The notes below the pieces were generated by a model. It had not been told where the DNA came from and searched no databases. It saw nothing but the letters and a program-made list of their open reading frames with translations. The position numbers were made by a program, and so were the translations under genes. From Zopfochytrium polystomum (Eukaryota > Chytridiomycota > Chytridiomycetes > Chytridiales > Chytridiaceae), in NCBI GenBank assembly GCA_025765615.1, contig JAIVFJ010000063.1, positions 1-64,000 on the forward strand: 64,000 nucleotides of DNA, given 5' to 3'. Of this stretch, positions 1,169-64,000 are shown in pieces (positions within the stretch are counted from its first letter, which is position 1; each line of letters starts with the position of its first letter).

Positions 1169-4100
1169 TCAAAACTGAATGACTGAAGAAAAGCCACTGC
1201 CAAGAAGAAGAATTGAATGTTTGGTGAGGAGTTGCTGGTCAACTCGAAATTCAGGAGAGAGCCAGCAAAGGACTTTGGTGGTGGTGGGGGAGAACCAAAC
1301 ACCATTATTCATAACAGACGCAGAAGCAGTTTGGCCATCCTGCAGTTTCTTCCCTGACACATAGCGAACACAAAAACTCGATTTCTGGTGGCAGGAAACG
1401 GTTTCAGAAAGCTCAGCATTCTCTTGTACTTGGAGTCCAGTTGCAAGATCGATGCACTTTGCTTTTCCATTCTGGTCCCTCAAAACAACAGAATGCCCAT
1501 CAGCGCTGAATCCATCAGATAATCTGAAAGAGAAACCATCAAGCTTGTACATCAACTGCCAGTGGGCTTTGGTTAACTTCTTAAACCAGCTTAAATAAGC
1601 TCTGCCAGTGGAAACATTCCAAATCCTGACTGTCTTGTCATCACTTCCAGACACAACAAACTGCCCATCAGGACTGAATGCTGCAGTTCTGACCCAATTA
1701 GTGTGTCCCACCAGATTGTGCATCTCCTGGCCAGTGGTCGCATTCCAGATCCTGACTGTCCAGTCATCACTTCCAGACACAACAAACTGCCCATCAGGAC
1801 TGAATGCTGCAGTTCTGACATAATCACTGTGCCCCTCCAGCTTGTGCATCTCCTGGCCAGTGGATGCATTCCAAATCCTGAGTGTCTTGTCATCACTTCC
1901 AGACACAACAAACAGCCCATCAGGACTGAATGCTGCCGAGTTGATCCAATCAGTGTGTCCCACCAACTTGTGCATCTCCTGGCCAGTGGATGCATTCCAA
2001 ATCCTGACTGTCCTGTCTGCACTTCCAGACACAACAAACTGTCCATCAGGACTGAATGCTGCAGAGAGGACAAAATCAGAGTGTCCCTCAAGAACATTCA
2101 TGCAAGCAGGCCAATCTGTTGGCTGCCCCTTCACAACTCGTGGGCATGGCACACCATGTGGCACCTTCTCCACAAATTTCTTGTGAAATTCAGAACCACT
2201 TGGAGAGAATGGAACAGCAGTGAAATAAACCTGCAATGCTGATGCCTTGAGTGGAATGAGAAACTTTTGCAAAACTCTTTTCATGTCTGACAGCAATGTG
2301 ACCAAATCTTTCTTTCCAGAACCATTCAGCAAAGTCTGAAGTTTCGTCATGGCAGGGATCACCAGATTGAGTGAATCCAACAAGCTGCAGGCCTCCAGGA
2401 AGTGATGTCCATGATTTTCAAGAAAATCTTGCAACTCCTCCAAAAAACTGTTTGAGGTTGTCTGATTCTCCACTGAACAGGTCTTTGGGGAGAGTTCCCT
2501 TGAGGCGTCAAAGCAGTGCTCCCAGAAGTGCTTCACTGCATATCTGACATGCTCTGGGACGCCTTTTGCAACTTTTTCATTGAATTCAGGGATCTCAGTG
2601 TGAAACTCGTCAAATGGCAGATCGCACATGTTGAACTTCAGGTTCTTGTTCAGTGCACTGATGCACAGACTCGCAAATTGTGCGTGTCCACCATTCAACT
2701 CAATCCTGACAGACAGTGCACATCGGGATGGATCTGTCAGGTAATCTTTCACAGACTTGTGGAAAAGCCTGATCTTCTTTGAGGAGCCATCAAGCACAAG
2801 GATGGGATCAAGCATGCGGATGGATCTCTTCACGTTTCCAGGGCTTTTGCCATCCAGGAGCGACACCATGGCTGCTGCAGTCAGTGGTTCATAGGCAAGG
2901 ACAATGATGGACAGCACGGTATGAAGCAAGGACTCCAACTGGCTCAACTTGGCTGAGTCCAAAATGCCAGCAAAGATCCTGTCATACATCTTATCAATGC
3001 GGCCATTCAGTTTGTCCCCCTCTGGCAGAGCATTGATTTCATCAAGAGTGATGACCTCTGTGTGGGAATCCCTCAGGTAGGTGCAAGCAGTCACAAGCCA
3101 GACAAAAATCCCAGACGACTTTGACACAAGAATCTTGGACCCATCATCCACCACAGATTGCTCAGCATTCAATGTAATCAGGAAACTCCGCGTGTACTCA
3201 ATCTGATCCTTGATGTTGTCTTCATCAGTCGGCTCAATTTCAGTGACAGGAATTGTCTCAAAGGCCTTTGAAATGTCTTCTTCAGGGCGTCCAGTCACCA
3301 GCAACTTCACATTGGGAGGAAGCAGCCTGTTCAACTCCTGAAACACTGCCAGGATTTCAACTCGCTTTCCAATGGCACCGCACTCATCCAGGGCATCCAC
3401 AACCAGTACCACAGGGTCATTCAGCTTCTTGGCATCAACAACACTCTTCAATGGCTCAACAAGCAGCAGTTTCATCATCTCAAACACAGATCTGGACAGA
3501 ATATCTGGATTGTCTTGCTTGACTTGAAGAAGAATCTTTCCAAAGTGAATACTGAACTTTGCAAGGCTGTAAGCAAGGGTCAGCACCAGATTGCGTGCAC
3601 TGTTTCGACGCTCGTCATCATGCTTGCAGAAGAACAAGCCGCCAAGCATGCCAGAAGCCTCAAGCTCTCTGGAAACCATGGCAGCCATCACAGACTTGCC
3701 CACTCCAGCCACCCCTTTCAACCACATCACCCTGTTGGTGCTGGCTGCGGATAGATCTGATGGAGACAGGAAGTCAAATACTTTTCTGAGAAGCCACTGC
3801 CTGGATCCAGTAAGCACATCCTTCAGGAGAGCCTGCCTCTCATCATCCATGAGCTCAGACAGGGGAGTCAGCCACTTTTCCAATCCATTCAATTCAGATC
3901 TGGAGAGTGAAATTTCTCTACTTGGGTCGGGTGTCTTCTGCTCAGCCTTCCTGCGACTGTACACTTCTCTTGCAGCTGTGACAATCCTGTAGTGATACAA
4001 GCTTAGTGTGGGAGAAGCGCTGATGAAAGGTGCATACTTTGGAACATCACTGTCTGGATAGGCAAAGCAACCATTCAGTTCCAGGACCATCCTCACAGTA

Positions 4101-5229
4101 TCAGACACATTGTGGCGGCGAGGGCTCAGAGGATGTGCATGAGGCAAGTCAGGTAACTTGGCATCAAAAGCGCTGAACTTTTTTATCAACAACTCCTTAG
4201 TCCCATCTTCCAGAGTGGCAGTCACCTGCCCTGCAAGAAGAACAGGCAGAATGTCAACACTTCTCTCTTCCTTCATCTGGAGTGCAAGTTCCCACTAATA
4301 ATCACTTTTAGCATCTCAAAGTCAAGTCAAAGAAATCACCTCCAACAAGCAATTGTCAGGCTTTGTGTGAGCCTCATGCATCCGCTTCATGCTTGCATCA
4401 GAGCAAAGCAGGATTATGACTGAAGAATGGAACAGGCCAGACATGAAATTGATATCCCACTTCTGGCCATAAGCAAGGCACTTTGCGTCCCAAAAAGCAT
4501 GTCGACCAGCCATTTTGGTTTCTTCCGGAAGAATGGTGCCAGTGTAAGAGTTTGCCAAAGCTGAAGCAATTTCATGGAAGAGAAATCCTGCAAAAACTTT
4601 CTCTGACGCCTGCCGGTAGCTGTTCAAGCGTCAGATTCTGTGGTAACACAATCACCCAACACAGACCTAATAAAGAAAGGGTGCTTTTGAACACTGGTCT
4701 CACATTTCCAATCAGCTGGAATCAACCGCATCCACTTATCTGATGGAGAATTTGAAACAGCAAGGGTAAGTCGCTAATGATCATTCCTAAACTTCACAAC
4801 TCACCCTTGTTGGGCACCAGGCTCTCATCAAAGCTATCACCGTTAGCTGCAGCAGTAGTGGTTGTGCCAGCTCCAGATGATGCAGCTGGAACAGTTTGGG
4901 TTGCTCCAGAAGGGTTCGAAACTGGCACAGCAAGCACCTTCAAAATTTTCAGAAAGAAATATAAAAGCAGAACAACTGATGAGAAGCAAACTTACATTCC
5001 ACTTGAAGTTCTGAGAAAGAAGGCTTGCCAGGTCGTCTTTCACATCAAGGATCATTTTACGACCAGTTGCAGAGTCCAGGTACACCAATTCAATAGGACC
5101 AGCAATATTCCAGCGTGAAGCCACAAGCTGGTGCAGATCGTCGAAGCCGGTGCTGGCAGGAACTTCAATCTTCCTTCCAGTATCGCCAAGCTCAAAAACC
5201 ACAGTCCAAGAAATCACTCGGCTCGCCAT
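1169..5229 (-). CDS. NLR-A: beta-grasp-TIR-NACHT-WD40 receptor (5 exons)
   Basis: Predicted intracellular NLR-type immune or allorecognition receptor of 1281 residues. Exons on the minus strand: 5229-4996, 4937-4805, 4739-4667, 4619-4340, 4294-1169. The introns are 58, 65, 47 and 45 nt, all GT-AG, and the summed length is a multiple of three. Residues 1-78 resemble a PB1/ubiquitin-like fold. Residues 79-122 are an Ala/Thr/Ser linker. The TIR domain runs from about 144 to 270, with box 1 FFISYRQASEK, the mid motif FWDAKCL and a C-terminal LLEWELAL. The NACHT P-loop GVAGVGKS is at 434-441 and Walker B LVVDALDECG at 537-546. Four WD40 repeats occupy 975-1137 and a conserved tail 1138-1281. The TIR class can act as an NADase or scaffold, and NACHT drives NTP-dependent oligomerisation (family knowledge). 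The start is the first Met of the exon that encodes the beta-grasp domain. All five exons are open, so the gene looks intact. Naming the first domain is the weakest part. Confidence 0.85.
1604..2092 (-). repeat. WD40-coding 126-bp repeat array, 4 units (NLR-A)
   Basis: Four near-identical 126-bp units each encode one 42-residue WD40 repeat with a fixed frame (SAAFSPDG, FVVSGS, TVRIWNAS). Variation is concentrated just after the GH dipeptide and around the SGS-x-D-x-T positions. Repeat 3 begins LEGHSDYVRT, a signature also found in repeat 8 of NLR-C. Confidence 0.9.
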
Positions 5230-7901: not shown

Positions 7902-9888
7902 TCACGTCACGTACGACGACATGGTCCCCTGCGACTCGGCGTACACCGTCCCGCGGTTATTATCGTACCCTCCGTTGTAGCCCCCACCTTCGCGCACGAG
8001 GCTGCTCGTCCGCCGCCCGACCGTGCCCCCCGAATACTCTGTCGTCGCGCTGCCCGCAGAGTACATCGTGTTCCTCCCCACCGCTCCCCCCGGCACCCCC
8101 AAAAACCCGGCCCCGGCGCCGCCCGCGGCCGCCGCGACCACCTCGTCTCCCCAACTCCCCGCCCCTCCACCAGAGGGAGCGCCCACCGGCCCCAGACACG
8201 ACATTGGGAACGCGCCCTCGGCTCTCGTGGTCGTGTTGACGCCGTAGCCCCAGCCGTCGTCAAACTGAGCGCGCACTTGCACAACGTCGCCAGGGTACAG
8301 GTGGATCTCATCCGACATGGTCGGGATGTACGTGAACACGGCCTGCAGCGTCTCGCTCGGGATACTGCTACCGCCGGACGGTGCTGATGCAGCGACCGGC
8401 GGTGGCAGACCGGACTTGACGTCCGTCGCGCCCTTGCCCGCAAACACGCCGGCCGCCGCCGCCGACGCCATTTGCTGCTGCTGCTGCTGTTGCTGCCCGG
8501 CAGGCACCGGCGGCAGCCTCCTCGCACCCCCACCGCCGCCGCCACCAGGAGACGTGACGGCGGCCGCCGCCGCCGACGCCGCCGACGGGAACGGGTTCCT
8601 CAGCGCCGGGCCCGCCAAATCCGCCGACGCGCTACCTGCGACGCGGAACCCCTGCTGTTGCTGCTGCTGCATCTGCATCTGCTGCTGTTGCATCGACTGC
8701 ATCTGCTGCAGTTGCGTCTGCTTGAGGTACCCCGCGGCCGCGGTGTTGTACGCCTTTTGCTCCTCCAGCTGGCGGCGAGCGGCCGCCGCAGCGCTCGAGC
8801 GCCGGCGGAGGCAAATGACCAGGACAAAGACGAGCAGCAGCAAAATGACGGCGGCCGCGACCACGACGCCGATAAACACGGGAAGAGAGAGGCCCAGAAT
8901 GCGCCCGGTGTTGTTGTTATTGTTATTGCCGCCGCCTCCGCCGTCCGGGGCCGGCCCGTTTGTCGCCGTGCCCATTCCGTTAGCGGTGGTGGTGGTGGTC
9001 GCCGTACCGCCACCTGTTCCTGTCGTCACGGTGGCGGTCGTGGCGGTGCCGGACGTCGTGCCCGCTCCGCCCGTCGTCGTCGACGCCGTCGTTGTCGCAG
9101 TGCCGACGCCAGCGACTTTTGCACAGCACGCGGTGGTAGGGTTCGCGGCGCAGAACGCGACCGCGGGCGCGTTCCTTGTAAAGCCGCAATTCAGATCCTC
9201 CATCGACCCGGGGTCGGCCACGACGCACGCGGGCGGGCCCGCCGCGGCCGGCATAGCGTTCAACCTCGCCAAAAAAGTCGTCGACTGCACCACAATATCG
9301 CTCCTCCTGGCCTTGGCCGCTGCATCCAAACCCCCGCCCCCATCCTGCGTGCACACATTCGGATCTCTAAACGTGGCGACCAACGAATTCAAAAACGCAT
9401 TCGCGGACGTCACACACGTCGTCGCGGTGACCGTTGCGCCGTTGTTGTTGCATCCGTAGTCGCGGGACGAGACGTCAACGACAGTGCCGCAGAGGGCGGT
9501 CATGTGGTACTGGAGGGAAGTGCCGGCGTAGTTGGGGCAGGCGAAAGTGGCGGCGAAGGAGGCGGCGGCGGCGGGGACGGTGTCGTTTTGCGAGGCGATG
9601 TAGGCGTCGAAGGAGGCGAGGTCGGTGAAGAGGCCGAGCGCGGTCGACGCGCTGTATGCTGTGTGGGAGTGTGATTTTGTGGGTGGTCGTTGTATCGATA
9701 AGCGGATGCGTGGCACACAACACACAACACACACACCTCGCTCCCCCATCGCTATCGCTCACTCACTCACCGGCCCACGAGCGACACTGCGTAGTTCCCG
9801 CCAGCGGGATGCACGTCGTGCCCGTCGTTGTTTGCGCCATCGTCATCGCGGCCGGTGATGCCAGCATCACCACCGCGCCCGCGACCAT
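7902..9888 (-). CDS. Single-pass membrane protein with cytoplasmic SH3 domain
   Basis: Two exons (9888-9771 and 9658-7902), with a 112-nt intron that has a gtgagtg donor and a cacag acceptor, give 624 residues. Residues 1-19 form a signal peptide (MVAGAVVMLASPAAMTMAQ). A Cys-rich ectodomain follows to about residue 228, then a Thr/Gly/Asn-rich linker. A hydrophobic segment lies at about 296-323, followed by RRR, so the C-terminus should be cytoplasmic. Gln- and Ala-rich low complexity precedes an SH3 domain at about 478-532 (EIHLYPGDVVQVR, DDGWGYG). Proteins of this layout are common in chytrid fungi. By analogy with fungal SH3 membrane sensors it may link the cell surface to cytoplasmic Pro-rich partners; that role is inferred. 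The start was chosen because it gives a clean signal peptide; the open frame continues upstream through low complexity. Codon use is far more GC-rich than in the NLR genes. Confidence 0.85.
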
Positions 9889-18516: not shown

Positions 18517-21500
18517 ATGTCAACTAGCCCTGTGTCTAGCACACCACCCCCAACACCACCACCCCTCCCTCGCTTTGCGACTTGGAACATCCGTCGTGCC
18601 TTCCCCACCAAGGCTGCATCTATCTTCCACTGGCTCAATCACACCAAAACCACCATCCTTGCCATTCAAGAAAATGGCTGCTCTGACACAGAGGCCACCC
18701 ACTCCATTCGTCACATCACTAGGAATTACAAAGGTTTCTTCATATCCTCCACCCCCTCCCGTCACGCTGGCGTTGGTTTCATCATTTCATCTTCCCTGGC
18801 ACCACACATCACTGACATCTCCCACTTTGGAACTCGTGCCATTGCCCTCACCTTATCTTTTGCTCGACGCTCCATCCTCCTGTGAAATATTTACTGGCCT
18901 GCTGACCCCCAATCTGAGGAACTCCCTGACTTGCAAAAATGGTGCAACTCTCTTGCCTCATCTGACTCCACCTCACCCCACCAAGCCTACTGGTTTGGTG
19001 ACTGGAATGCCATCACTGACCCCCTTGACCACTCCACCAGAGCCCCCACACCTACTTCCCACCATGGGTTCCTCCCCACCCTCTCCCTGAAAGGCTTTGT
19101 TGATTCCTTTAGACACCTGCACCCAGACTTACCCTCTTACACACACACTGCTGGCTCCTACTCCTCTCGTTTGGACAGCATTTGGCTCTCACCCCCTGCT
19201 CTTGACTACGTCACTGAAGCTAACATTTCTTCTCCACTTGAAGAGCCCCATCTCACTGACACTTCAGACCACCTCCCCTTCAACATAATTCTTGCTTCCT
19301 CCCCCTTCCACACTTTTCCCTTCTCCCCTCTGCGCCGGCAGGTCATCAAACCCCTGGAAGCTTCAGAGGAGCAACTCGACAATTACACTTCAGCCGTCTC
19401 AGTTGAGCTTGCCCCCCTCTCAGCAGCCCTTGCAGCCTTGGACAGCATTCTTCTCCCCTCCGAGCTTGATTTCCCCTGTTCTCCATCCCTACCCTTTCAA
19501 TACCCCTCCCCAGAACGTGCATCACTCCTCATCAGCCACCTTGACACACTCTCCACATCATTTCACGAGTTGCTGCTTCGGCTTGGCAAAAAGTTCCTTC
19601 CTCACAAGGGAACCTCCTCAGTAGCGCCAAAGATAGATTGCCGTGCCAAACCATTCCTTGTTGCACGTTGGAAAGTAGAGAAACTGTGGGCACTTGCCAA
19701 AGACCTGGCCCATGATCTGGCTAACATCTTCCCTTCCATTCCTTTGACCCCATCTGAGTGGGGCGCAGATCAGTCTTACTCCTTCTTGTCCCACATCCAC
19801 TCTCAGTACAAAGCCCGCTTCTTTGACACAACTGACTATCGTGATGTTTTACTCCCCGCCCTCAACCGCCATCGCCAGGCCATCTACCATGCCCAATGCC
19901 AGGCAGCAGAAAAGCACAAAATGGAGGACATTGCCGCAGCTCTCACACATAGACACAACCTGTTCTCTTCTGGCAAGATAAAGACTGCCCTCAACAACAT
20001 CCCCAACCGCACGCGCAGCAACTCTAGCATCGACCACATTCGCTATACTACTGCCGAAGGTCCCTCAATCACCCACGATCCTGACCTTGTCCCTGGAATC
20101 TGCCAACAACAGGTTGAACACTGGTTTCGCCCTCGTACCCTCACTCCCTTCCCACCATCCTCTCCATTTCACTCTGAGATGCAACCCCGTCCCCACATCA
20201 CCCCATATCTTTTCTCCAAGGTTATGCTGCCCCCTTCTGCCAACGACGTCAAAAACGCTCTCACATCTCTTGCCTCAAACAAAGCCCCTGGCCCCTCCCA
20301 AATCTCCAGAGAGCTTCTCCTCGCAGCTGGTCCTGATGCTCTTGCATTCTTCTTCTCCCTCATCATTCGCTCTTTTCTCTTCCTTGACATCCCAGACTCT
20401 TGGGCATCTTCCTCCATCTTCCCCATACCCAAGAAAGCTGCGTGGGGTGGTGACATCACTAACCTCTGTCCAATCAGCCTCTGCGAACTTGCTGCCAAAG
20501 TTGTTCAATCCATCCGTCTTTCTCGTATCTCTTCCATCCTCTCTTCTCACAATGTACTCCTTGGTCGCAACTTCTCTGCCCTACCTGGCTCTTCTCCTGA
20601 CCCGCCTCTCCACCTGGTACGCTACGCCCTTGACCTTGCCCATTCCACTAAACAGCCCTTATACCTTCTCCTCAACGACATTAAGAAAGCTTTTGACAGT
20701 GCCCCTGTTGCTGGCCTCATTGCCTCCTGGGAACGTATTCACCTCCCCTCTTCTTATGTTCGCATGCGTGTCAATTCCCAACGTCGTTTTCGTTCCTCTG
20801 TCATCACAGCTTTTGGCCCATCCCCTTCCTTCCCCATTGGCACTATGATTCAGCAAGGCTCCCTTGAGGGACCCCTTGATTGGCGTATCTTTTGGGACCC
20901 TGTTCTTTGCGTTCTTGATCGGTGTACCACCAGTTTCATTTTCTCAGTTCCCACCCCTCGTAACTTCCCTGTCCAATTCTTCAACCCCCCACCCCCTGTC
21001 TCTGTTACTGGCTTTGCCCTTGTCGACGACACCAACACCCTCTCCAGCACCCTGGAGGATCTGCAGCTTCAGGCCAACCTCCTCTTTGAGTACCAGTCAC
21101 ATAACGACATCGAGTCTAACACCAAGAAAATCTTCATCTCCGCCGTCAACACCCTGCGATCAGCACCTACCACCATCAACTGGGGCACCACAGTCCTTCC
21201 CATCCACCCCCCAAACACCACCTTTCGACACCTAGGCAACTACTTCACAGCAGATGGTATGAGCTCAGCAGCACGGCAGCAAATCCTTTCCACCACCACC
21301 AATTTCCTTGACATTTTCAAATACATAAAGATGGGTGACAAAATTGCTTCTTACCTCATCCGTAACGTTCTCCTCCCACGTGTCCGCTTTCTGTGGAAAA
21401 CTGCCATTCTCCCCCGTACTTTCCTCAACAACCTCACCACACTCTGTCGCAAAACCTTCAAACGCCTGGTTGGTTACTGCACCTCTTTTCCCAATGCCCT

Positions 21501-24174
21501 CCTCCATCACCCCATGACCCATAACTTCCCTGACTTTTACAATGAATACTGCTCTGACATGATTGTTGACCTCAACTCTCGCTTGAACTCCCCCTCTCTC
21601 ATTGGCCACATAAGCCGTATCATGATGCACCGCCTCCAACTTGACCTGGCCTCTGGAGCTCCAGTTTTCTCACATCCCTTACCCTTGTCCCAGCCAAAAA
21701 AAACACTTCACCAAGTCTCTCATTCCCATCCTTTTTAACCAACAAACATCCTTCCAATACTCTGGTCCACCCCTATTTTCTGATCATGCTCACTCCATCA
21801 ACTCATTAGTTCCTTGGCATATTTTTCTCAAAGTGCTTCCCACTCTCCGTTCACACTCAGTCTTCTTTTTTGAACAACTTTTTGACCTCCGCCTCACCAG
21901 TCCTTCTTACAAAGACAGCTCTCTCCCTGACAAACTCTGTGAAGTGTACCACATCATTAAGACCTTTATTTTTGCTGCTCCCACCTTTGGCTCTCCAGTC
22001 TTTTACCACAGCCCTCCTGATGGTCCTCTTTACAATCCCTTTTACCCATCTTCTTTGGATCCACTTCACCATCCCCCCCTTGCTTGTGGCAGTTTTTTCC
22101 GTCTGATGACCCCACCACAAGTGGAATTCTTCCGCATTGTTAACTGGACTCACACACTCCCAAACCCCCAACTCCTTTCTCATCACTACTCCAGGCTCCC
22201 TGAACGCCTTCACCCTTCCTACCACAATTTCCACTTGGTCCAATGCCTTGGCTGCCCCACTGGCTCCCCCCCATTCTCTTACCCCTGCAGCAAGCACATC
22301 TCTCCCTACAATCCAACTTCCCTTGCACACTCCACCTACACAGTCCCCATCAGCAGCCGCACAACTGCTACTGCAACTCGACCCTCCCAGCCCATCTTCT
22401 TTGTTAACTCACCTTCCCCCACCACCGTTTTCACACACACACCTTTCCCACTCCTCACCTCCTGCCACTCCACTTTCAATCCAGCTCCCTTCACAAATCC
22501 CTGCTTTCAACCAATGGACGTGCCCCTTCTCCCTGCTGACCTTGCTCATACCCACCCTCCTTGACCTTTGACACCGATGGCCCCCTTCGCGAGGAGGGAT
22601 TCATGGCTGGCTCTGTTGTTTGCCTTGAGCTTAACTTTGAATTTTCTTTTGCCCTCCCTCCACTCTCTGCCTCTTCCACAACTGCTGAAATTGCTGCTCT
22701 CCTTGCTGCCCTCACCATCACTGCAAAGCTTTCCCTGCCCCTCACTTTTTGACTTGACAATCTTGGAGTGGTTCACACCTTTGAGAAACTCTTTCCCTCA
22801 AACTCCTTTAGTCCCCATCCACACAGCGAGCTCAACACACCTCCTCTCTCTGATTCCCTCCATCGTCTTTTGCACACCACTTCCCACCCCACCCTTTGGG
22901 CATGTGTTGCAGCCACTCTACAGTCTTGGATTGGCCCCCCTCCACAAGTTTCCTGGGTTCGTGGACACAACGGCAACGCTGGCAACGAACAAGCAGACAA
23001 GCTGGCATCATCTGTACCCTCGACTTCCGACCCAACTTTGTTACCAATCCTCTCACAACAGATCCTCCCAGCCACTGCCTTCATCTCAAATACCCCCATC
23101 TTGGGCCAACTTCGACGACAACTGCGACTCCTCACAGGTCTCTCTCACCATTTTGCACTTCTGAACACCTCAGCCTTTGCCCACATCACCCACAACCCTG
23201 AACTAGTTCATTGGGAAGCCACATTTCTTGTTCTCCACTCTGGAATTAAACCCTCTTCCCTCTTTGGCACCCTCCCTGGCTCTGCTCGTCGCAAGTATCG
23301 ACTTCAAATCCTCAGCAACACTTTGCCCACCCAAAAAGTTCTACACCAACGACACCCTCAAGTCTACCCTGATGGGCTCTGCCGTCGATGCCACCACGCT
23401 CTGGAAACCACAGAGCATGTCTGGCAATGCCCTGCAGCTGCCGACGCCATTGTCATGATTCGCAACACCTTTGCTGAAACTCTTTCCTCCTCTGTTCCTC
23501 CTGCACCTCATGGTCGCTCCCCTCCTCAAGCCCATCCCATTTACTGGCTCTCCCGCCCTGAATTTCTCTTTGATGATCAATCTTGTATCAATTTTTCCTC
23601 CCTCCTTCGTGGCTTCATCCCTCAATCCTTTTATGACACCTTATTCTCACGTGATAACCCTGCTGCCTCTGTCCTTAAAACCCTTGTCACCGCTTTCCAT
23701 CAGCTCCTTCTTGACGCCCATCGACTTATTTGGATCCCCTGTTGTGACGACACTATCTCTTGGGAGAAGTCAAAGTCCATCAAGCCCTCTGACAAGCGCA
23801 CCAAGCCCCGCAGATCCCCTCCACCAAATTCCCAGGCCTCTCACCCTCGTTCCACGGCCTCTCACCCACTGTCTTCTCCAAACATCAACTCTTCCCTCCC
23901 TCCCACTCCATCATCCCACAGAACTCGTAACAGCTCCTCACAACCCTCTCAACCTCGCTGCACCACATGTTGTCGCCGGCACTCCACTGACACTTGCCCA
24001 GGCATCTGGCTTTTGCGCACCAAGGCTTCTTCCAGATGGATTGACCACTACCTCGGCCGCATAAAACTTGTTGCAGGCATTATCTGGCTTCACCACACAA
24101 TACAACTCCCCTCACGCCAACAAGCAAGAGCCACTCGTCACCCATCTCCTGCTGAGCCCCCTGACGTTCACTGA
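18517..24174 (+). pseudogene. LINE ORF2: APE endonuclease-RT-RNase H-zf-RVT, broken
   Basis: The endonuclease is at about 18570-19290 (TWNIRR, WFGDWNAI, SRLDSIW, TSDHLPF). The RT spans about 20260-21260 (LNDIKKAFDS, QQGSLEGPLDW, and FALVDDTNTLSS as the catalytic DD box). RNase H is at 22561-23030 (TFDTDG, TTAEIAAL, LDNLGVV, VRGHNGNAGNEQADKLAS). A C-terminal finger follows (CRRCHHALETTEHVWQCP, about 23382-23435), and a further CCRRH motif near 23970. Lesions are an in-frame TGA at 18883, loss of frame at an A8 run (21696-21703), a second shift before the RNase H at about 22560, and a TGA inside RNase H at 22750. The product would make and integrate LINE cDNA by target-primed reverse transcription; this copy cannot. 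Confidence 0.85.
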
Positions 24175-24344
24175 GCCACTGTTGCCCTTCTCGATCTTGA
24201 CATGGGCTGTTGCCTAATCTGACTTATCCCAACCCTCCGATCTTTCACAGATGCTCCCCTCTCTTACACTGACATCCTTCAGACTCACTTCTCTATTTTC
24301 TTGATTCTGTGTTTTCCCCTTCTCCTTTGATCATTGTGGCTTTA

Positions 24345-24506
24345 TGTGCGGTGGAGATGCCTGACGACCCTGTAAGTCCGTAGCGCATGGGGTGGGTTTG
24401 CTGAGGTGATACCTGGACGTAGTCCATTACGGTTCACCGTTGATGGCTCTTTCTCTTCCCGCCAGCCCCTCTGGGGCTGGAACAATAAAAAAAAAAAAAA
24501 AAAAAA
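24345..24506 (+). repeat. LINE 3' tail shared with 52030-52190
   Basis: The last 160 bases (gcggtggagatgcctgacg ... ggctggaacaat, then poly-A) recur with moderate divergence at 52030-52190, although the sequences further upstream do not match. A conserved 3' end is what the RT recognises in many LINEs. Confidence 0.8.
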
Positions 24507-24639
24507 TCTCATTGGCATTTGTGAATCTTCTTGTTCAAGGAAGAAAGTTGGCTCTGATTCAGAAAGAATGTAATCAGTTACTTCACCTACTACAGGCACC
24601 ATCCTGATGTCTGCCATACACAACCAACACCTCCTCCAA

Positions 24640-25878
24640 ATAACTATGCCCTTGGCATATCAACGTGGAATGTGAATAGGATTCGATCTTGGGCCTGACA
24701 TTTGAGACCAACTGAAGACAACACTCCTGCTCTCAAAATCTTCGAGAAATACCTTGACTTCCAACCCTGTTCCATTGTATGTCTACAAGAAACAAGAATC
24801 GGCTCCAAAGCTGAAGCACTTTACATTGGTCTTCATAACCTCACCAACTGGAACCGCATCATTCATGACCCCAGAACTGGAAAAAATGGTGTTGCAGTCT
24901 TTTGGGAAAAAGAACTCAATGGAATAGAGCATAAAACATCCCCTTTTTCTCACCATCCTGACATTGAAGGAAGGATGATAACCGTCCAGTTTAGTGAAAT
25001 TGCAGTTGTTACTGTTTATGTACCTAGTGCATTTCACGTTTCTGAAAGGGAAAAAGTAAATAAAAGCATTTCTTGAGAATTTAAGAAATCACTGCAGACA
25101 CTTGAGAAATCAAGGCTTTGTTGTGATTGTAGCTGGTGACTTCAATGTCGCTCATAACGAAATTGACATTCATCCTGCTATTGAAACTTATCTTGAAATA
25201 AAGAATGCCTCCTTCTCTAGCTACTTGGCCTGGGAGCGTGGCTGGCTCACTGCTTTTCTGAAAGATGGTTTTATGGACACATATAGACAAAATCATTCAC
25301 TGATAAATGGATATACTTGGTTACCACCGCAAAGAACAATACGCAGCAGAACTGTTGATTATCCTGCTCTCCGCGTTAACTACATCTTTGTTGATAACAG
25401 AATGTACAGCTCTGAAGTACAGACATCACTCTCCCCAACACTTCACCCACCTAGCGATCATCTTCGAGTTGACTGCTACCTGCCTCTGTCTTCAATCCCC
25501 ACATTTAACAAGCCCGTTTCTGAGCTGCTAAAACAACAGGAATTACACTCCCTGTCCATATGGAAGACACCTGAGTGCCCACCCAAATCCAAAAGGTTTG
25601 ATAATAACAGAACTTCTCAGGCCTATGGAGCTCTATGCCCTCCTCCGATTAAAACCTTTTCTTTCACTCCTTCCCTCCTGAAGAGGCCTAAGCAACCCCT
25701 TCAAACCATGCTTAACGAACCTATTCCCAATCACTATGAATCCTTTGCCTTTGAAAAGCTAGGCATCTTTGCTGAAACTGACAAAGTCAGAAAGCTTCAA
25801 CTTGCTGATCCCTTCTTCGGACCCATAACAGGTGCTACACCCATGGCCATCGTGCAGGGGGGTGTTAGGCGGAACTGA
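24640..25878 (+). pseudogene. ExoIII/APE-family endonuclease pseudogene (APN2-like)
   Basis: The translation follows the exonuclease III/AP endonuclease fold: STWNVNRIRSW, IVCLQETRIGS, GKNGVAVFWEK, then EGRMITVQF, VVIVAGDFNVAHNEIDIH, GFMDTYRQNH, ALRVNYIFVDNRM and PSDHLRVDCYL. The metal and catalytic residues N, E, D/N and DH are present. The tail contains KRPKQPLQTMLN, which resembles a PCNA-interacting motif like those of APN2-type enzymes. An in-frame TGA follows the first motif (24697-24699), and the frame shifts between about 25050 and 25070. It begins 130 bp after the LINE poly-A. It resembles a cellular repair enzyme more than the LINE endonuclease of the same window, but an unusual retroelement endonuclease is not excluded. 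Confidence 0.6.
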
Positions 25879-27332: not shown

Positions 27333-30300
27333 TCAAAACTGAATGACTGAAGAAAAGCCACTGCCAAGAAGAAGAATTGAACGTTTGCTGAGGAGTTGCA
27401 TGCCACCTCGAAATTCAGGAGGAAGCCAGCAAAAGACTTTGGTGCTGGTGGGGGAGAACCAAACACCATTATTCATAACTGACAAAGAAGCAGTTTGGCC
27501 ATTGTGCAGTGTCTTCCCTGACACATCACGAACACAAAAACAGGATTTCGGGGTTAAGGAAATGATTTCAGAAAGTCCCGCATTCTCTTGTACTTGGAGT
27601 CCAGTTGCAAGGTCAATGCAAGTTGTTTTTCTGTTCTGGTCGCTCAAAATAACAGACTGCCCATAAGTACCGAATCCAACAGATGAACTGACAGAGAAAC
27701 CATCAAGCTTGTGGATCAACTGCCAGTGGGCTTTAGATGACTTCTTAAACCAGATTAAATTAGCACTGCGAGTGGATGCATTCCAAATCCTGACTGTCAT
27801 GTCTTTACTTCCAGACACAATAAACTGCCCATCAGGACTGAATGCTGCAGAGAAGACAGAATCAGAGTGTCCCACCAGCTTGTTCATCTCCTGGCCAGTA
27901 GATGCATTCCAAATCCTGACTGTCTTGTCCCAACCTCCAGACACAACAAACTGCCCATCAGAACTGAATGCTGCAGAGTTGACCTTACCAGTGTGCCCCA
28001 CCAGCTTGTGCATCTCCTGGCCAGTGGATGCATTCCAAATCCTGACTGTCTCATCTCCACTTCCAGACACAACAAAATGCCCATCAGGACTGAATGCTGC
28101 AGAGGTGACCCCATCGGTGTGTCCCACCAGCTTGAGCATCTCCTGGCCAGTGGATGCATTCCAAATCCTGACTGTCTTGTCCAAACCTCCAGACACAACA
28201 AAATGCCTATCAGGACTGAAAGCTGCAGAGTACACCCTATCAGTGGGTCCCACCAGCTTGAGCATCTCCTGGCCAGTGGATGCATTCCAAATCCTGACTG
28301 TCTTGTCCAAACCTCCAGACACAACACTCTGCCCATCAGGACTGAATGCTGCAGAAGTCACATGATAAGTGTGTCCCACCAGCTTGTGCATCTCCTGGCA
28401 AGTGGATGCATTCCAAATCCTGACTGTCCGGTCTCCACCTCCAGACACAACAAACTGCCCATCAGGACTGAATGCTGCAGAAGTCACATGTACGGTGTGT
28501 CCCACCAGCTTGTGCATCTCCTGGCCAGTAGATGCATTCCAAATCCTGATTGTGCTGTCCCAACCTCCAGACACAACAAAATGCCCATCAGGACTGAATG
28601 CTGCAGAGGTGACCCCACTCGTGTGTCCCACCAGCTTGTGCATCTCCTGGCCAGTGGATGCATTCCAAATCCTGACTGTCCTGTCTGAACTTCCAGACAC
28701 AACAAACTGCCCATCAGAACTGAATGCTGCAGAGTTGACATTACCAGTGTGTCCCACCAGCTTGTGCATCTCCTGTCCAGTGGTTGCATTCCAAATCCTT
28801 GCTGTCTCATCTCCACTTCCAGACACAACAAACAGCCCATCAGGGCTGAATGCTGCAGAGTCGACATGATAAGTGTGCCCCACCAGCTTGTGCATCTCCT
28901 GGCCAGTGGATGCATTCCAAATCCGGACTGTCTTGTCTTCACTTCCAGACACAACAAACTGCCCATCAGGACTGAATGCTGCAGAGTAGACCCTATCAGT
29001 GTGTCCCACCAGCTTGTGCATCTCCTGGCCAGTGGATGCATTCCAAATCCTGACTGTCCTGTCCCAACTTCCAGACACAACAAACTGCCCATCAGGACTG
29101 AATGCTGCAGATGAGACAGAATTAGAGTGTCCCTCAAGAACACTCATGCAAGCAGGCCAATGTGCTGGCTGCCCCTTCACAACTCGTGGGCATTGCAAAC
29201 CAGGTGGCACCTTCTCAACAAATTTCTTGTGAAATTCAGAACCACTTGGAGAGAATGGAACAGCAGTGAAATAAACCTGCAATGCTGATGCCTTGAGTGG
29301 AATGAAAAACTTTTGCAAGACTCTTTTCATGTCTGACAGCAATGTGACCAAATCTTTCTTTCCAGAACCATTCAGCAAAGTCTGAAGTTTCGTCATGGCA
29401 GGGATCACCAGATTGAGTGAATCCAACAAGCTGCAGGCCTCCAGGAAGTGATGTCCGTGATTCTCAAGAAAATCTTGCAACTCCGCCAAGAGACTGTTTG
29501 AGGTTCTCTGATTCTCTACCGAAAATATCTTTGGGGAGTGTTCTGTTGAGGCGTCGAAGCAGTGTTCCCAGAAGTGCTTCACTGAGTATCTGACATGCTG
29601 AGGGACCCCTTTTGCAACTTTTACATTGAAATCAGGGACCTCAGTGTGAAACTCATCAAATGGCAGATCGCACAAGTTGAACTTTAGATTCTTGTTCAGT
29701 GCACTGATGCATAGTCTTGCAAATTGTGCGTGTCCATCATTCAACTCAATCCTGACAGACAGCCCACATCGGGATGGGTTGGTCAGGTAATCCTTCACAG
29801 ACTTGTGGAAAATCCTGATCTTCTTTGAGGAGCCATCAAGCACAAGGATGGGATCAAGCATGCGGATGCATCTCTTCACGTTCCCAGGGCTTTTGCCATC
29901 CAGGAGCGACACCATGGCTGCTGCAGTCAGTGGTTCGTAGGCAAGGACAATGATTGACAGCACAGTGTGAAGCAAGGTTTCCAACTGCTTTGACTTGGCT
30001 GAGTCCAAAATGCCAGCAAAGATCCTGTCATACATCTTATCAATGCGGCCATTCATCTTGTCTCCCTCTGGCAGAGCATTGATTTCATCAAGAGTAATGA
30101 CCTCAGCATGGGAATCCCTCAGGTAGGTGCAAGCAGTCACAAGCCAGACAAAAATCCCAGACGACTTTGACACGAGAATCTCGGATCCATCATCCACCAC
30201 AGATTGCTCAGCATTCAATGTTATCAGGAAATTCCGTGTGTACTCAATCTGATCCGTAATGTTCTCCTCAGCAGTCGGCTCAATTTCAGTGACGGGAATC

Positions 30301-32223
30301 GTCTCAAAGGCCTTTGAAATGTCTTCTTCAGGGCGTCCTGTCACCAGCAACTTCACATTGGGAGGAAGCAGCCTGTTCAACTGCTGAAACACTGCCAAAA
30401 TTTCATTCCTCTTGCCAATGGAACCACATTCATCCAAAGCATCCACCACAAGCACCAAAGGCACATTCAGCTTCTTGGCATCAACAACACTCTTCAATGG
30501 CTTAACAAGCAGCTCCTTCATCATCTCAAACACAGGTCTGGACAAAATATCTGCACTGTCTTGCTTGACTTGAAGCAGAATGTCTCCAAATTGAATACTG
30601 AACTTTGCAAGGCTGTAAGCAAGGGTCAGCACCAGATTGCGAGCGCTGTTACGACGTTCATCATCATGCTTGCAAAAAAACATGCCACCAAGCATGCCAT
30701 GTGCTTGCAGCTTCCTGGAGACCATGGCAGCCATCACAGACTTGCCCACTCCAGCCACCCCTTTCAACCACATCACCCTGTTCGGATTGGCTGCAGAGGG
30801 ATCATCAGGAGACAGGAACTGAAACACTCTTTCAACCAGCCACTGCCTGGATTCAGACAGCACATTCTGCAGGAGAGCTTGCCTCTCAACCTCCATCAGC
30901 TCTGACAGTGGAGTCAACCAACTCTCCAATTCAGCCAGGCTGGATCTGGGAAGAAAAATATCTGGACTTGGCCTCGGGGTCTTTGAATCAGCCTTGCGGC
31001 GACTGTATACTTCACATGCCTCAGTCACAACCCTATTGAAGTTGAAAAGAAGGTCAAACAGAATTTCAGAAACAGAAACATTGCAATCAACAACTGCCAG
31101 CACCCACCTCACAACATCAGTTTCAGGATTCACCTTTGGCCCGTTCAGCTCCATCACCATCTTTACAGTTTGTGCCACTGTTTGCTGGCCAGGGCTCAGA
31201 GGGTGCGCATGAGGAAGGTCGGGAAACTTGGTATGATCAAAAGTGCGAAAGTCCACTGATACCAGCTCTTTCCTCCCGTCGCTGAGGGTGGCCATATCTT
31301 TGCTCGAAAGGAGAACAGGAAAGATGTCATGGCCTTTCTCTTTTCTCATTTGAAGAGCCAACTCCCACTGAGGGTTTCAAGGTCAATGCCTGAGGAAGGA
31401 AAAAGTCAGCTCACCTCCAGCAGGCAGTTGTCAGGCTTCTTGTCAGCCTCCACCATCCTCCTCATTCCAGCATCAGAGCACAGTAGAATGATGACTGATG
31501 AGTGAAACAACCCAGACATAAAGTTGATGCCCCATTCTTGGGCAAAGGAAAGGCATTCTGCATCCCAAAAAGCATGTCTTCCATCCATCCTGGACTCCAC
31601 AGTAAGCACAGATCCAGTAAATGCTTCCAAGAGCTGTATCTTCATCTGGTCAAACAGATTCCTTGCAAAAAATTTCTCAGAGGCCTGGCGATAGCTTCGA
31701 CAGGGTCCAGGATGAGACAGTGGATCCAGCAGAATTGCAGGAAAATACCTGATAAAAAAGGGATGCTTCTGGACTTTGGTTTTGCACTCCCAATCTTTCG
31801 GGATCAAGCCAATCCATTTATCTGATAAAACAAGTTCACAAGAGACCATTGGTCAACGTCTACTGCATAACGCACCACAAGACTCACCCTTATCTGGAAC
31901 AAGGTTCTTATCATACGGATCATTATCAGCTGCAACAGCTGGAGCATTTCCACCAGATGTGCTAGCAGCAGAATTGACAACAACAGAAGCGCTGGCTGCT
32001 GGAGTAGTGGCAGGCACAGTTGCACCCAGGAAGGCGGTCGCAGAAGGAAGCACCTTAAAACTGCAGAGTCCACATACACCAACTCAATAGGACCAGGGAG
32101 ATTCCAGGATTCAGCCACCAGCTTGTGCAGATCAGCAAAGCTGGTGCTCTCAGGAACTTCAATCTTCCTTCCAGTATTGCCCAGCTTGAAGATCACCATC
32201 CATGAATTCACTTGGAGGGCCAT
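27333..32223 (-). CDS. NLR-B: TIR-NACHT-WD40 receptor paralogue, exon 1 damaged
   Basis: Exons matching NLR-A one for one are visible: exon 2 32053-31888, exon 3 31821-31749, exon 4 31694-31415, exon 5 31367-27333. Exons 3 and 4 have exactly the same lengths as in NLR-A (73 and 280 nt), and introns 2-4 are 66, 54 and 47 nt. Splicing again yields HPFFIS-YRQASEK, then FWDAECL and LLEWELALQ. NACHT (GVAGVGKS, LVVDALDECG), eleven WD40 repeats and the conserved tail ending GFSSVIQF are all open. The oddity is exon 1 (from 32223): after VYVDSA the last 24 codons of the beta-grasp domain, the splice donor and most of intron 1 are missing, so exon 1 runs out of frame into exon 2. The gene may be a 5'-damaged pseudogene or may be translated from another start. 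Everything downstream looks functional. Confidence 0.8.
27768..29138 (-). repeat. WD40-coding 126-bp repeat array, 11 units (NLR-B)
   Basis: Eleven consecutive 126-bp units each encode a 42-residue WD40 repeat. Units differ at the three residues after GH, at the residue after V, and around SG[S/G]-x-D-x-T. Two units carry GHT-YHV, and neighbouring units are often identical outside the variable sites, which points to recent unit exchange. Confidence 0.92.
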
Positions 32224-38381: not shown

Positions 38382-38453
38382 TGTTTCCAATACAATCATC
38401 ACTCCTCTCAGTTCCTTGTCTGCCTTGCCCTGTCCTGCCATGTTCCTGACATC

Positions 38454-38464
38454 ATAATTCACTT
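38454..38464 (+). other. Primer-binding site complementary to the transcript 5' end
   Basis: The 11-mer ataattcactt lies two bases after the 5' LTR end. It is complementary to 38371-38381, and the match stops at 11 nt on both sides. It is not recognisably complementary to a tRNA 3' end. The same arrangement is present in the three array copies. Confidence 0.65.
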
Positions 38465-38491
38465 CACCCTCTCCTACTACTCTCTGCCATC

Positions 38492-39415: not shown

Positions 39416-39563
39416 GAGGCAATTCCCTGGACCCTCCTCCAAGCTGCCCCTGTTTCATCGCCACCACCAGCACCACAAACACCTCAGATTCCAAGCCCCA
39501 CCAACTCACCATGGATGTCAAGATTCAACTCTCACCCATGTCAACCAACTCTACCTCAGAGAA

Positions 39564-40408: not shown

Positions 40409-40423
40409 TCATCTCCCCCTTTT
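40409..40423 (-). other. Polypurine tract, copy 2
   Basis: The minus strand reads aaaagggggagatga directly against the 3' LTR, the expected plus-strand primer. It also encodes the last pol residues (KRGR) and its final TGA is the stop codon. The identical tract stands at 43241-43255 and 46077-46091. Confidence 0.8.
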
Positions 40424-60455: not shown

Positions 60456-63400
60456 TCAAAACTGAATGACTGAAGAAAAGCCAATTCCAAGAAGAAGAAC
60501 CAAATGTTTGGTGAGGAGTTGCTTGTTACCTCGAAATTCAGGAGGAAGCCAACAAAAGACTTTGGTGCTGGTGGGGGAGAACCAAACACCATTATTCATG
60601 ACAGAAAGAGAAGCAGTTTGGCCAAGATCCAGTTTCTTTCCTGCCACATCACGAACACAAAAACAGGATTTCTCCTTCCAAGAAATGGTTTCAGCTAGTA
60701 CAGTATTCTCTTGCATTTGGAGTCCAGTTCCAAGGTCGATGCAATTTGCTTCCCCATTCTCGCCCCTCAAAACAGCAGACTGCCCATCAGCACTGAATCC
60801 GCTAAAAGAGAAACCATCAAGCTTGTGCATCAACTGCCAGTGAGAGTTGGTTGACTTCTTAAACCAGCTTAAATAAGCTCTAACAGTGGATGCATTCCAA
60901 ATCCTGACTGTCTTGTCTTTACTTCCAGGCACAATAAACTGCCCATCAGGACTGAATGCTGCAGAGTTCACATGATGGGTGCGTACCACCAGCTTGTGCA
61001 TCTCCTGGCCAGTGGATGCATTCCAAATCCTGACCGTCTTGTTATTACTTTCAGTCACAACAAACTGCCCATCAGGACTGAATGCTGCAGAGTTGATCCC
61101 TTTAGAGTGTCCAACCAGCTTGTGCATCTCCTGGCCAGTGGATGCATTCCAAATCCTGACAGTCTTGTCAAAACCTCCAGACATAACAAACTGCCCATCA
61201 GGACTAAATGCTGCAGAGGTGACCCCATTGTTGTGTCCCTCCAGCTTGTGAATCTCCTGTCCAGTGGATGCAATCCAAATCCTGACAGTCTTGTCATAAC
61301 TTCCAGACACAACAAACAGCCCATCAGGACTGAAAGCTGCAGAGGTGACTGGATCGGTATGTCCCACCAGCTTGTGCATCTCCTTACCAGCAGATGCATT
61401 CCAAATCCTGACTGTCTTGTCTTCACTTCCAGACACAACAAACTGCCCATCAGGACTGAATGCTGCAGAGTTCACAGGATGGTTGTGTCCCACCAGCTTG
61501 TGCATCTCCTGGCCAGTGAATGCATTCCAAATCCTGACTGTCTTGTCAGTACTTCCAGACACGACAAACTGCCCATTAGGACTGAATGCTGCAGTTCTGA
61601 CATAATCACTGTGCCCCTCCAGCTTGTGCATCTCCTGGCCAGTGGATGCATTCCAAATCCTGACAGTCTTGTCACAACCTCCAGAAAGGACAAACTGCCC
61701 ATCAGGACTGAATGCTGCAGAGCTGACCCCATAGTTGTGTCCCACTAGCATGTGCCTCTCCTTACCAGTGGATCCATTCCACATTCTGACCGTACTGTCC
61801 CAACTTCCAGACACAACAAACTGCCCATCAGGGCTGAATGCTGCAGAGGTGACTGGATCGGTGTGTCCCACCAGCTGGTGGATCTCTTGGCCAGTGGATG
61901 CGTTCCAAATCCTGACTGTACTGTCCCAACTTCCAGACACAACAAACTGCCCATCAGGACTGAATGCTGCTGAGTTCACAAAGGAAGTGTGTCCCACCAG
62001 CTGGTGCATCTCCTGGCCAGTGGATACATTCCAAATCCTGACTGTGCAGTCCCAACTTCCAGACACAACAGACTGTCCATCAGGACTGAATGCTGCAGAG
62101 GTGACCTCATAGTTGTGTCCCACCAGCTCATGCATCTCCTGGCCAGTGGATGCATTCCAAATTCTGGCTGTCCTGTCATTACTTCCAGACACAACCAACT
62201 GCCCATCAGAACTGAATGCTGCAGAGTTGATCCCTTTTGAGTGTCCCACCAGCTTGTGCATCTCCTGGCCAGTGGATGCATTCCAAATCCTGACTGTCTT
62301 GTCTTCACTTCCAGACACAACAAACTGCCCATCAGGACTGAATGCTACGGACTTGACGCTCTTGGTGTGTCCCAGCAGCCTGTGCATCTCCTGGCCAGTC
62401 GATGCATTCCAAATTCTGACTGTCCTGTCTGAACTTCCAGACACAACAAACTGTCCATCAGGACTGAACACTGCAGAAGTGACAGTAGCATAGTGTCCCT
62501 CAAGCACGTTCATGCAAGCAGGCCAATCTGTTGGTTGCCCCTTCACAAATTGCAGGCATGGCAAACCAGGTGGCACCTTCTCAACAAATATTTTGTGAAA
62601 TTCAGAACCACTTGGAGAGAATGGAACAGCAGTGAAATAAACCTGCAATGCTGATGCCTTGAGTGGAATGAGAAACCTTTGCAAAACTCTTTTCATGTCT
62701 GTCATCAATGTTTCCAAGGTTTTCTTTCCAGAACCATTCAGCAAAGTCTGAAGTTTCGTCATGGCCGGAATCACCAGATTCAGTGAGTCCAACAAGCTGC
62801 AGACCTCCAGGAAGTGATGTCCGTGATTTTCAAGAAAATCTTGCAACTCCCCCAAGAGACTGTTTGAGATTGTTTGATTCTCCACAGAAAATATCTTTGG
62901 GGAGTGATCCTTTGAGGCTTCGAAGCAGTGCTCCCAGAAGTGCTTCACTGCATATCTGACATGCTCAGGGACCCCTTTTGCAACTTTTTCATTGAAATCA
63001 GGGACTTCATTGTGAAACTCATCAAATGGCAGATTGCACATGTTGAACTTCAGGTTCTTGTTCAGTGCACTGATGCACAGGCTTGCAAATTGTGTCTGAC
63101 CATCATTCAACTCGATCCCGACAGGCAGTTCACACCGTGTTGGATCTGTCAGGTAATCCTTCACAGACTTGTGGAAAATCCTGATCTCCTTGGTTGATCT
63201 GTCGAGTACCAGGATTGGGTGAAGTATGTGGACGCAACTCATCACATTTTCAGGATTTTCCCAATGCAGCAGCGACACAATGGCGGCTGCAGTGAGGGGC
63301 TCATAGGCAAGAACAATGATGGAAAGCAGAGAATGAAGCAAGGTTTCCAACTGCTTTGACTTGGCGGAGTCCAAAATGCCAGCAAAGATCCTGTCATACA

Positions 63401-64000
63401 TCTTATCAATGCGGCCATTCATCTTGTCTCCCTCTGGCAGAGCATTGATTTCATCAAGAGTAATGAACTCAGTGTGGGAATCCCTCAGGTAGGTGCAAGC
63501 AGTCACAAGCCAGACAAAAATCCCAGACGACTTTGACACGAGAAGCTTGGATCCATCATCCACCACAGATTGCTCAGCATTCAATGTAATCAGGAAATTC
63601 CGTGTGTACTCAATCTGATCCGTAATGTTCTCCTCAGCAGTCGGCTCAATTTCAGTTACAGGAATTGTCTCAAAGGCCTTTGAAATGTCTTCTTCAGGAC
63701 GTCCAGTCACCAGCAACTTCACATTGGGAGGAAGCAGCCTGTTCAACTCCTGAAACACTGCCAGGATTTCAACTCGCTTTCCAATGGCACCGCACTCATC
63801 CAGGGCATCCACAACCAGTACCACAGGGTCATTCAGCTTCTTGGCATCAACAACACTCTTCAATGGCTCAACAAGCAGCAGTTTCATCATCTCAAACACA
63901 GATTTGGACAGAATATCTGGATTGTCTTGCTTGACTTGAAGCAGAATCTTTCCAAAGTGAATACTGAACTTTGCAAGACCACACACCAGGGTCAGCACCA
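60456..64000 (-). CDS. NLR-C: NACHT-WD40 receptor paralogue, truncated by window edge
   Basis: Open through the right edge; the P-loop, TIR and upstream exons lie outside. The visible part begins inside NACHT, just after the stretch NLVLTLAYSLAKF of NLR-A, and includes Walker B LVVDALDECG. It continues through the winged-helix region, thirteen WD40 repeats and the conserved tail ending GFSSVIQF. The first 340 nt are almost identical to NLR-A. From about 63650 the sequence follows NLR-B (TAEENITDQIEYTRN, KMNGR, SKQLETLLH). A short diverged block (LLHWENPENVMSCVHILHP) follows, unlike both. It should act as in NLR-A: ligand-triggered NTP-dependent assembly, with the WD40 propellers as recognition surface (family inference). 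Confidence 0.85.
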   Translation of the reverse strand, partial: VLTLVCGLAKFSIHFGKILLQVKQDNPDILSKSVFEMMKLLLVEPLKSVVDAKKLNDPVVLVVDALDECGAIGKRVEILAVFQELNRLLPPNVKLLVTGRPEEDISKAFETIPVTEIEPTAEENITDQIEYTRNFLITLNAEQSVVDDGSKLLVSKSSGIFVWLVTACTYLRDSHTEFITLDEINALPEGDKMNGRIDKMYDRIFAGILDSAKSKQLETLLHSLLSIIVLAYEPLTAAAIVSLLHWENPENVMSCVHILHPILVLDRSTKEIRIFHKSVKDYLTDPTRCELPVGIELNDGQTQFASLCISALNKNLKFNMCNLPFDEFHNEVPDFNEKVAKGVPEHVRYAVKHFWEHCFEASKDHSPKIFSVENQTISNSLLGELQDFLENHGHHFLEVCSLLDSLNLVIPAMTKLQTLLNGSGKKTLETLMTDMKRVLQRFLIPLKASALQVYFTAVPFSPSGSEFHKIFVEKVPPGLPCLQFVKGQPTDWPACMNVLEGHYATVTSAVFSPDGQFVVSGSSDRTVRIWNASTGQEMHRLLGHTKSVKSVAFSPDGQFVVSGSEDKTVRIWNASTGQEMHKLVGHSKGINSAAFSSDGQLVVSGSNDRTARIWNASTGQEMHELVGHNYEVTSAAFSPDGQSVVSGSWDCTVRIWNVSTGQEMHQLVGHTSFVNSAAFSPDGQFVVSGSWDSTVRIWNASTGQEIHQLVGHTDPVTSAAFSPDGQFVVSGSWDSTVRMWNGSTGKERHMLVGHNYGVSSAAFSPDGQFVLSGGCDKTVRIWNASTGQEMHKLEGHSDYVRTAAFSPNGQFVVSGSTDKTVRIWNAFTGQEMHKLVGHNHPVNSAAFSPDGQFVVSGSEDKTVRIWNASAGKEMHKLVGHTDPVTSAAFSPDGLFVVSGSYDKTVRIWIASTGQEIHKLEGHNNGVTSAAFSPDGQFVMSGGFDKTVRIWNASTGQEMHKLVGHSKGINSAAFSPDGQFVVTESNNKTVRIWNASTGQEMHKLVVRTHHVNSAAFSPDGQFIVPGSKDKTVRIWNASTVRAYLSWFKKSTNSHWQLMHKLDGFSFSGFSADGQSAVLRGENGEANCIDLGTGLQMQENTVLAETISWKEKSCFCVRDVAGKKLDLGQTASLSVMNNGVWFSPTSTKVFCWLPPEFRGNKQLLTKHLVLLLGIGFSSVIQF
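60882..62504 (-). repeat. WD40-coding 126-bp repeat array, 13 units (NLR-C)
   Basis: Thirteen consecutive 126-bp units. Units 3 and 12 share GHSKGINSAAFS, units 6 and 10 share GHTDPVTSAAFS, and unit 8 shares LEGHSDYVRTAAFS with NLR-A unit 3. Unit 12 has lost the usual SGS-x-D motif (TESNNK) and unit 13 has VVRTHH in place of VGH, so the array end is degenerate. Confidence 0.92.

Follow-up and report, generated by a model that had tools for sequence, protein, structure and literature searches.

PB1-TIR-NACHT-WD40 genes form a large candidate NLR family in the chytrid Zopfochytrium polystomum

Background

NOD-like receptor (NLR) immunity in fungi is known mainly from the hyphal Dikarya, where the kinship between the HET domain and TIR rests on remote similarity. 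Which effectors, then, do the NLRs of early-diverging fungi carry? A locus of Zopfochytrium polystomum raises this question. It lies on the minus strand of the window, by which we mean the whole 64,000-nucleotide stretch analysed (C63:1-64000 of the 80.16-Mb assembly). An earlier note, made from the letters of this DNA, had read it as a TIR-effector NLR of an early-diverging fungus, and the species does belong to such a lineage (Chytridiomycota, Chytridiales).

The same note took TIR effectors to be typical of plant and bacterial NLRs and of SARM1, with fungal NACHT-WD40 receptors usually carrying HET or similar domains, a picture that is slightly outdated. In earlier papers, no NLRs had been found in chytrids in 2014 and HET was linked to TIR (PMC4986451), TIRs are reported to occur in fungi (PMC7075850), fungi are assigned a TIR-like HET domain (PMC9153377), one sentence mentions TIR in NLRs of Chytridiomycota (PMC9815663), and TIR-NLRs are noted as a small fungal group (PMC10197012). 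Judged from these one-line statements, the receptors of PMC9815663 and PMC10197012 probably belong to the same broad class as the genes described here. In the open-licence PMC literature we found no account of a PB1 fusion, of the scale of the family or of a hypervariable sensor.

Results and Discussion

A single gene of six exons

The gene had originally been modelled with five exons (4996-5229, 4805-4937, 4667-4739, 4340-4619 and 1169-4294, joined at GT-AG), giving 1281 aa with no internal stop. The order and joining of these exons hold, but one more intron (3987-4037) is needed. Its 51 nt are a multiple of three and free of stops, so it could not be detected from one copy; it was found through the paralogues, which carry an extra intron at residue 326 phase 2. 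The resulting six-exon model, again with GT-AG joins, encodes 1264 aa and a stop, and its features are as follows.

4996..5229, minus strand: exon 1, residues 1-78, beta-grasp / PB1 domain (spliced model, predicted fold)
4805..4937, minus strand: exon 2, Thr/Ala-rich linker (spliced model)
4667..4739, minus strand: exon 3, linker and first TIR strand, FFIS (spliced model)
4340..4619, minus strand: exon 4, TIR core as far as LLE (spliced model; 125 matches in own genome)
4340..4342, minus strand: Glu240, presumed catalytic glutamate (family alignment, pairing with Cat1 Glu)
4038..4294, minus strand: exon 5, remainder of TIR from WELAL on (paralogue comparison and spliced model)
3987..4037, minus strand: intron 5, 51 nt, GT-AG, extra to the five-exon model (position kept in 21 of 22 models)
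1169..3986, minus strand: exon 6, NACHT, winged/helical region, WD40 and stop (spliced model)
3953..4686, minus strand: TIR domain (about residues 141-337), interrupted by introns 3-5 (TIR_2 match; boundaries carried over from residues 170-366 of the P0045 model)
3287..3805, minus strand: NACHT (NPHP3_N; Pfam), P-loop GVAGVGKS at 3692-3715
1580..2083, minus strand: four near-identical 42-residue WD40 repeats
1172..1579, minus strand: divergent C-terminal region (about 136 aa), perhaps with three cryptic blades

After a check on the window gene, we ran a splice-aware aligner on 20 loci and on two window copies. One of the resulting 22 models is the fragment L033, in which no WD40 repeat was detected; it was excluded from the alignment of 46 rows and from the dN/dS analysis of 21 genes. 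With the five-exon query (first 470 residues) in-frame stops appeared in 15 of the 22 models, and with the six-exon query (first 620 residues) in 3. The introns at 147/phase 2 and 240/phase 0 are present in all 22 models, that at 326/phase 2 in 21, that at 123/phase 1 in 20 and that at 78/phase 0, where the linker is variable, in 9; intron lengths are 44-57 nt at junction 240 and 51-82 nt at junction 326. The same-species database model P0045, an independent one, also lacks the 17 residues encoded by intron 5.

It could be argued that PB1-TIR and NACHT-WD40 are two adjacent genes wrongly joined, as the database models P0046, P0047 and P0049 end after the TIR or begin after it. Against this, junction 240 is found in all 22 models and junction 326 in 21 of them, and the parts are united in P0045 as well as in longer proteins from other chytrids; P0045 and P0046 each hold PB1 and TIR in one protein, and P0045 includes the start of the NACHT. 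We therefore reject this explanation, to which we would give next to no probability, on the recurrent junctions and the joined database proteins. The architecture proposed at the outset, with a beta-grasp N-terminus, TIR, NACHT and WD40 in one spliced frame, is thus borne out by Pfam, by paralogue splicing and by predicted folds.

A bacterial contaminant was likewise ruled out by the introns and by the relatives in other chytrids. As a separate observation, the database protein P0048 is encoded with 100% identity at L046 (C19:78000-79700), where the database gene model omits the first TIR strand. This looks like a mis-predicted splice, and chytrid TIRs may thus be under-annotated.

A family on a genomic scale

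The locus had been expected to be one of several copies. Indeed, the TIR exon has 125 matches in its own genome, 105 of them at least 210 nt long, and the PB1 exon has 124. Of the 125 TIR exons, 99 are preceded on their own strand by a PB1 exon at no more than 1.5 kb, where about 0.15 would be expected, and a NACHT lies within 1.5 kb downstream of at least 93 (150 of 231 NACHT candidates were listed). At least 83 TIR exons stand in the order PB1-TIR-NACHT, and 16 have neither neighbour among the NACHTs listed. Viewed from these 150 of 231 NACHTs, 92 have a window-type TIR upstream, 36 a more canonical TIR_2, 7 a PB1 exon only and 15 none of these. The counts are of exon matches rather than curated genes, and some will be pseudogenes. 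For comparison, Sordariales genomes hold a mean of 56 NLRs (range 10-162) according to the available text of PMC12258605.

Three copies fall within the window, the other two being:

27333..32223, minus strand: second family copy, with at least 11 WD40 repeats; its model has one in-frame stop
60456..64000, minus strand: third family copy (L017), which runs off the window end, with at least 13 WD40 repeats

Other features of the window include LINE-like reverse transcriptase and endonuclease-like fragments (18886-25878, plus strand), several Ty3/gypsy-type fragments between receptor copies (38450-47408; gag, protease, integrase zinc-binding and chromodomain matches), and an open frame adjoining the receptor gene (7902-9758, minus strand), in which SH3 matches at or close to its cut-off and one stretch is likely to span the membrane.

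By profile matches, TIRs abound in this genome outside the NLRs as well: there are 85 further TIR_2 matches, 84 of which do not overlap the window family. The 36 listed NACHTs with a canonical TIR_2 form a second TIR-NACHT family (for example C18:430426-431567, C57:327447-328568 and C291:4191-5333), and 48 TIR_2 matches, several scoring 66-86 bits, have no PB1 exon and none of the listed NACHTs nearby (for example C52:276794, C162:33737 and four places in C241). HET has 28 matches in the genome, none within 5 kb on the same strand of the NACHTs listed.

The TIR domain and its glutamate

In the first 330 residues of the window copy, Pfam places TIR_2 just above its cut-off (30.8 bits versus 28). 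The match is also above cut-off in P0045, P0048 and P0005, and below it in P0046, P0004, P0008, P0018 and P0020. A phmmer search of the PDB with the single TIR sequence found no TIR (best E 0.13, an unrelated chain), and a profile search gave weak TIR matches (best E 0.089). The TIR of the paralogue P0045 was modelled (pLDDT mostly 77-92, with dips at 201-210 (46) and 291-300 (57)), and the 50 structural matches listed for it are all to TIR proteins, of which many are NADases (SARM1, plant TNLs, SPARTA). The reading of this region as a TIR thus stands, on the match over cut-off in the window copy and on the flavodoxin-like TIR fold predicted for P0045. A chance match was ruled out by the predicted fold, the conserved glutamate and collinearity with PB1 and NACHT.

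The alpha-C glutamate, Glu240, is found in 44 of 46 family rows (the others have one Q and one gap) and in 17 of 17 database proteins covering the site, and a profile alignment places it opposite the glutamate of the alpha-C motif in Cat1. This conserved glutamate and the TIR fold are compatible with NADase activity. Alternatively, the TIR may be an adaptor rather than an enzyme, which would recruit other TIR proteins through TIR-TIR contacts and leave it to the partner to kill or to signal. Candidate partners are at hand in the 84 TIR_2 matches outside the window family in this TIR-rich genome, IL-1R-family and MAL TIRs are also among the structural matches of the P0045 domain, and NAD+ hydrolysis is not universal to TIRs, as stated in the text of PMC9153377 available to us. 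An adaptor, however, would not need a nearly invariant glutamate, and we regard this alternative as unlikely.

The PB1-like N-terminus and the NACHT

A beta-grasp / PB1 N-terminus had also been proposed, and here the outcome is divided: the fold is predicted and PB1 is recognised by sequence in paralogues, but in the window copy PB1 scores 11.7-13.7 bits, under the Pfam cut-off of 23.6. Across nine family segments, the PB1 profile is above cut-off in two, below it in six, in one of which another family outscored it, and without a match in one (Cladochytrium). The P0045 model is poor over this part (pLDDT under 45), and exon 1 was therefore modelled alone; a beta-grasp fold is predicted, which other beta-grasp folds match nearly as well. 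Our own PB1 profile reaches weakly into database proteins of other chytrid genera (P0004, P0008). In P0004 (Nowakowskiella), residues 1-540 apparently hold several beta-grasp-like repeats before the TIR, with three very weak PB1-profile matches.

The NACHT and WD40 parts were read correctly from the start. In a Pfam search of the whole window-copy protein (best 25 of 58 families), the NACHT-type NTPase NPHP3_N reaches 91.7 bits versus a cut-off of 24.8, together with four WD40 stretches; the NACHT lies between TIR and WD40 and has the GVAGVGKS and LVVDALDE motifs. Median pairwise dN/dS over 21 genes is 0.18 for TIR, 0.18 for NACHT, 0.32 for PB1 and 0.71 for the linker (of 210 gene pairs, 153 were used for PB1, 76 for the linker, 92 for TIR and 172 and 201 for NACHT, the others being too close or saturated). 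These low values for TIR and PB1 indicate that both domains are maintained.

A hypervariable WD40 sensor

Searching by similarity to one window repeat, which misses diverged repeats, we detected at least 227 WD40 repeats, which are spread over 21 genes and mostly spaced by 42 residues. All 227 have Trp29; Phe10 and Asp13 are each present in 224. The most variable positions are 4, 22, 6, 3 and 24 (2.7-3.8 bits), the next reaching 2.25. At these five positions dN/dS is 1.35 (gene bootstrap 5-95% 1.16-1.58; pairs not independent) versus 0.31 in 31 framework codons. PMC1805685 describes, in Podospora NWD genes, positive selection on codons 7, 9, 25 and 27, which flank the conserved 8 and 26 and lie on the propeller's binding face. 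Aligned by hand on the conserved residues, these codons correspond by position to our 4, 6, 22 and 24 around 5 and 23. In P0009 (Entophlyctis), with nine repeats of 72% mean identity, positions 3, 4, 6, 22 and 24 are among the eight most variable; other chytrid proteins compared are more diverged and show the pattern less clearly. By eye, the N-terminus of P0009 resembles the canonical TIR type of P0024.

The repeats are also shuffled between genes: the best match lies in the same gene for 74 of the 227 repeats, and the best match outside the gene lies in the closest relative of that gene for 56. Such free exchange would suit a neutral origin of the variability, in which unequal crossing-over turns the repeats over and loop positions are unconstrained; it would suit it too that pN equals pS at position 22 taken by itself, and that the all-pair selection values are close to saturation. 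Nevertheless, among the 105 pairs with 93% identity or more, the five sites have a pN/pS of 0.163/0.058, versus 0.015/0.052 in the framework (positions 37 and 41, outside the Podospora sites, also show an excess), and the variable sites coincide with those of Podospora, making neutrality, in our judgement, very unlikely. The variable sites are compatible with recognition of a variable partner.

The repeat number of the window copy itself calls for caution. Eleven repeats were detected in 9 of the 21 genes, and functional het-d/het-e alleles usually have 11, modelled as two seven-bladed propellers with three cryptic C-terminal repeats (PMC12222747, available text). The window copy, with its four repeats and a tail of perhaps three blades, would form one propeller; at least three paralogues share the last 305 residues of its ORF at 74-76% identity. 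This copy could be a short or non-functional form, or an assembly error, and since short-read assemblies mis-assemble such arrays (PMC12222747, available text), the count of four is provisional.

A proposed mechanism

Taken together, these genes probably encode intracellular NOD-like immune receptors with an enzymatic TIR. The sequences give the order of the domains, the structure of the gene, the size of the family, the constraint on TIR, PB1 and NACHT and the excess of amino-acid change at the sensor surface; from them we infer a ligand, oligomerisation, PB1 assembly, NADase activity and cell death along the following lines. The WD40 propeller would bind a variable partner, which might be the product of a microbe or virus, a host protein in modified form or a protein of another strain. 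The NACHT would then exchange nucleotide and oligomerise, and the oligomer, aided by front-to-back PB1 contacts, would gather the TIR domains. So assembled, the TIR would cleave NAD+ through Glu240, and the loss of NAD+, or a cyclic ADP-ribose-type product, would kill or arrest the infected or non-self cell. In SARM1 it is SAM that drives assembly, and PB1 may, by analogy, be the assembly partner here. Searches for two readers of TIR products (EDS1_EP and LSDAT_euk) gave no match, and the controls were equally silent, so that absence is not implied.

The earlier note had suggested NADase-based cell death or allorecognition as possible roles. The same machinery might serve allorecognition between strains rather than antimicrobial defence, given that the hypervariable WD40 sites are those of Podospora het-d/het-e and that repeats are shuffled between genes. 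To our knowledge, however, chytrids are not known for hyphal fusion, the basis of heterokaryon incompatibility. Most fungal NLRs are thought to act otherwise (PMC12881547). We consider this role decidedly unlikely.

Comparison with known systems

The immune receptor that we propose can be set beside several known systems. Like the Podospora anserina HNWD/NWD genes (HET-D, HET-E, HET-R), the chytrid family combines a NACHT with high-identity WD40 repeats, inter-gene exchange and the same variable positions. In Podospora the WD40 domain determines the specificity of incompatibility (PMC1805685 and PMC12222747, available text). The N-terminus differs, being HET in HNWD and PB1-TIR here; HET is absent from the first 330 residues of the window copy at E up to 1 (Pfam). 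Plant TNLs (RPP1, ROQ1, RUN1) pair their TIR with NB-ARC and LRR, whereas the chytrid receptor has NACHT and WD40 and a PB1 before the TIR; among the best 25 of 58 families, its best NTPase is NPHP3_N and its repeats are WD40. SARM1, a nerve-death protein, and TIR-1 carry ARM repeats, and the chytrid receptor differs from both in having an NLR switch and a WD40 sensor. A comparable domain order is reported for bacterial TIR-STAND-WD40 proteins (PMC9153377, available text). WD40 proteins from bacteria and other organisms took up part of our database searches; the bacterial rows matched mostly by WD40, with short query cover, and rows without the family TIR were not used.

Conclusions

With at least 83 PB1-TIR-NACHT exon sets, a TIR predicted to fold like those of SARM1 and plants and Podospora-like variable sensor sites, the early-diverging fungus Z. 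polystomum would possess a bona fide repertoire of TIR-NLRs. More tentatively, and in our view less likely than not, TIR-based plant-like NLR immunity might be the main NLR repertoire of chytrids, with PB1 driving TIR assembly as SAM does in SARM1; the plan of TIR, NACHT and hypervariable WD40 might then be old in Chytridiomycota and either ancestral or parallel to the incompatibility genes of Dikarya with HET, NACHT and WD40. The family opens the questions of whether TIR NADase signalling has ancient roots in fungi, whether TIR genes gave rise to the HET-NACHT-WD40 ones, and whether hypervariable WD40 sensors took part in defence before they came to serve allorecognition.
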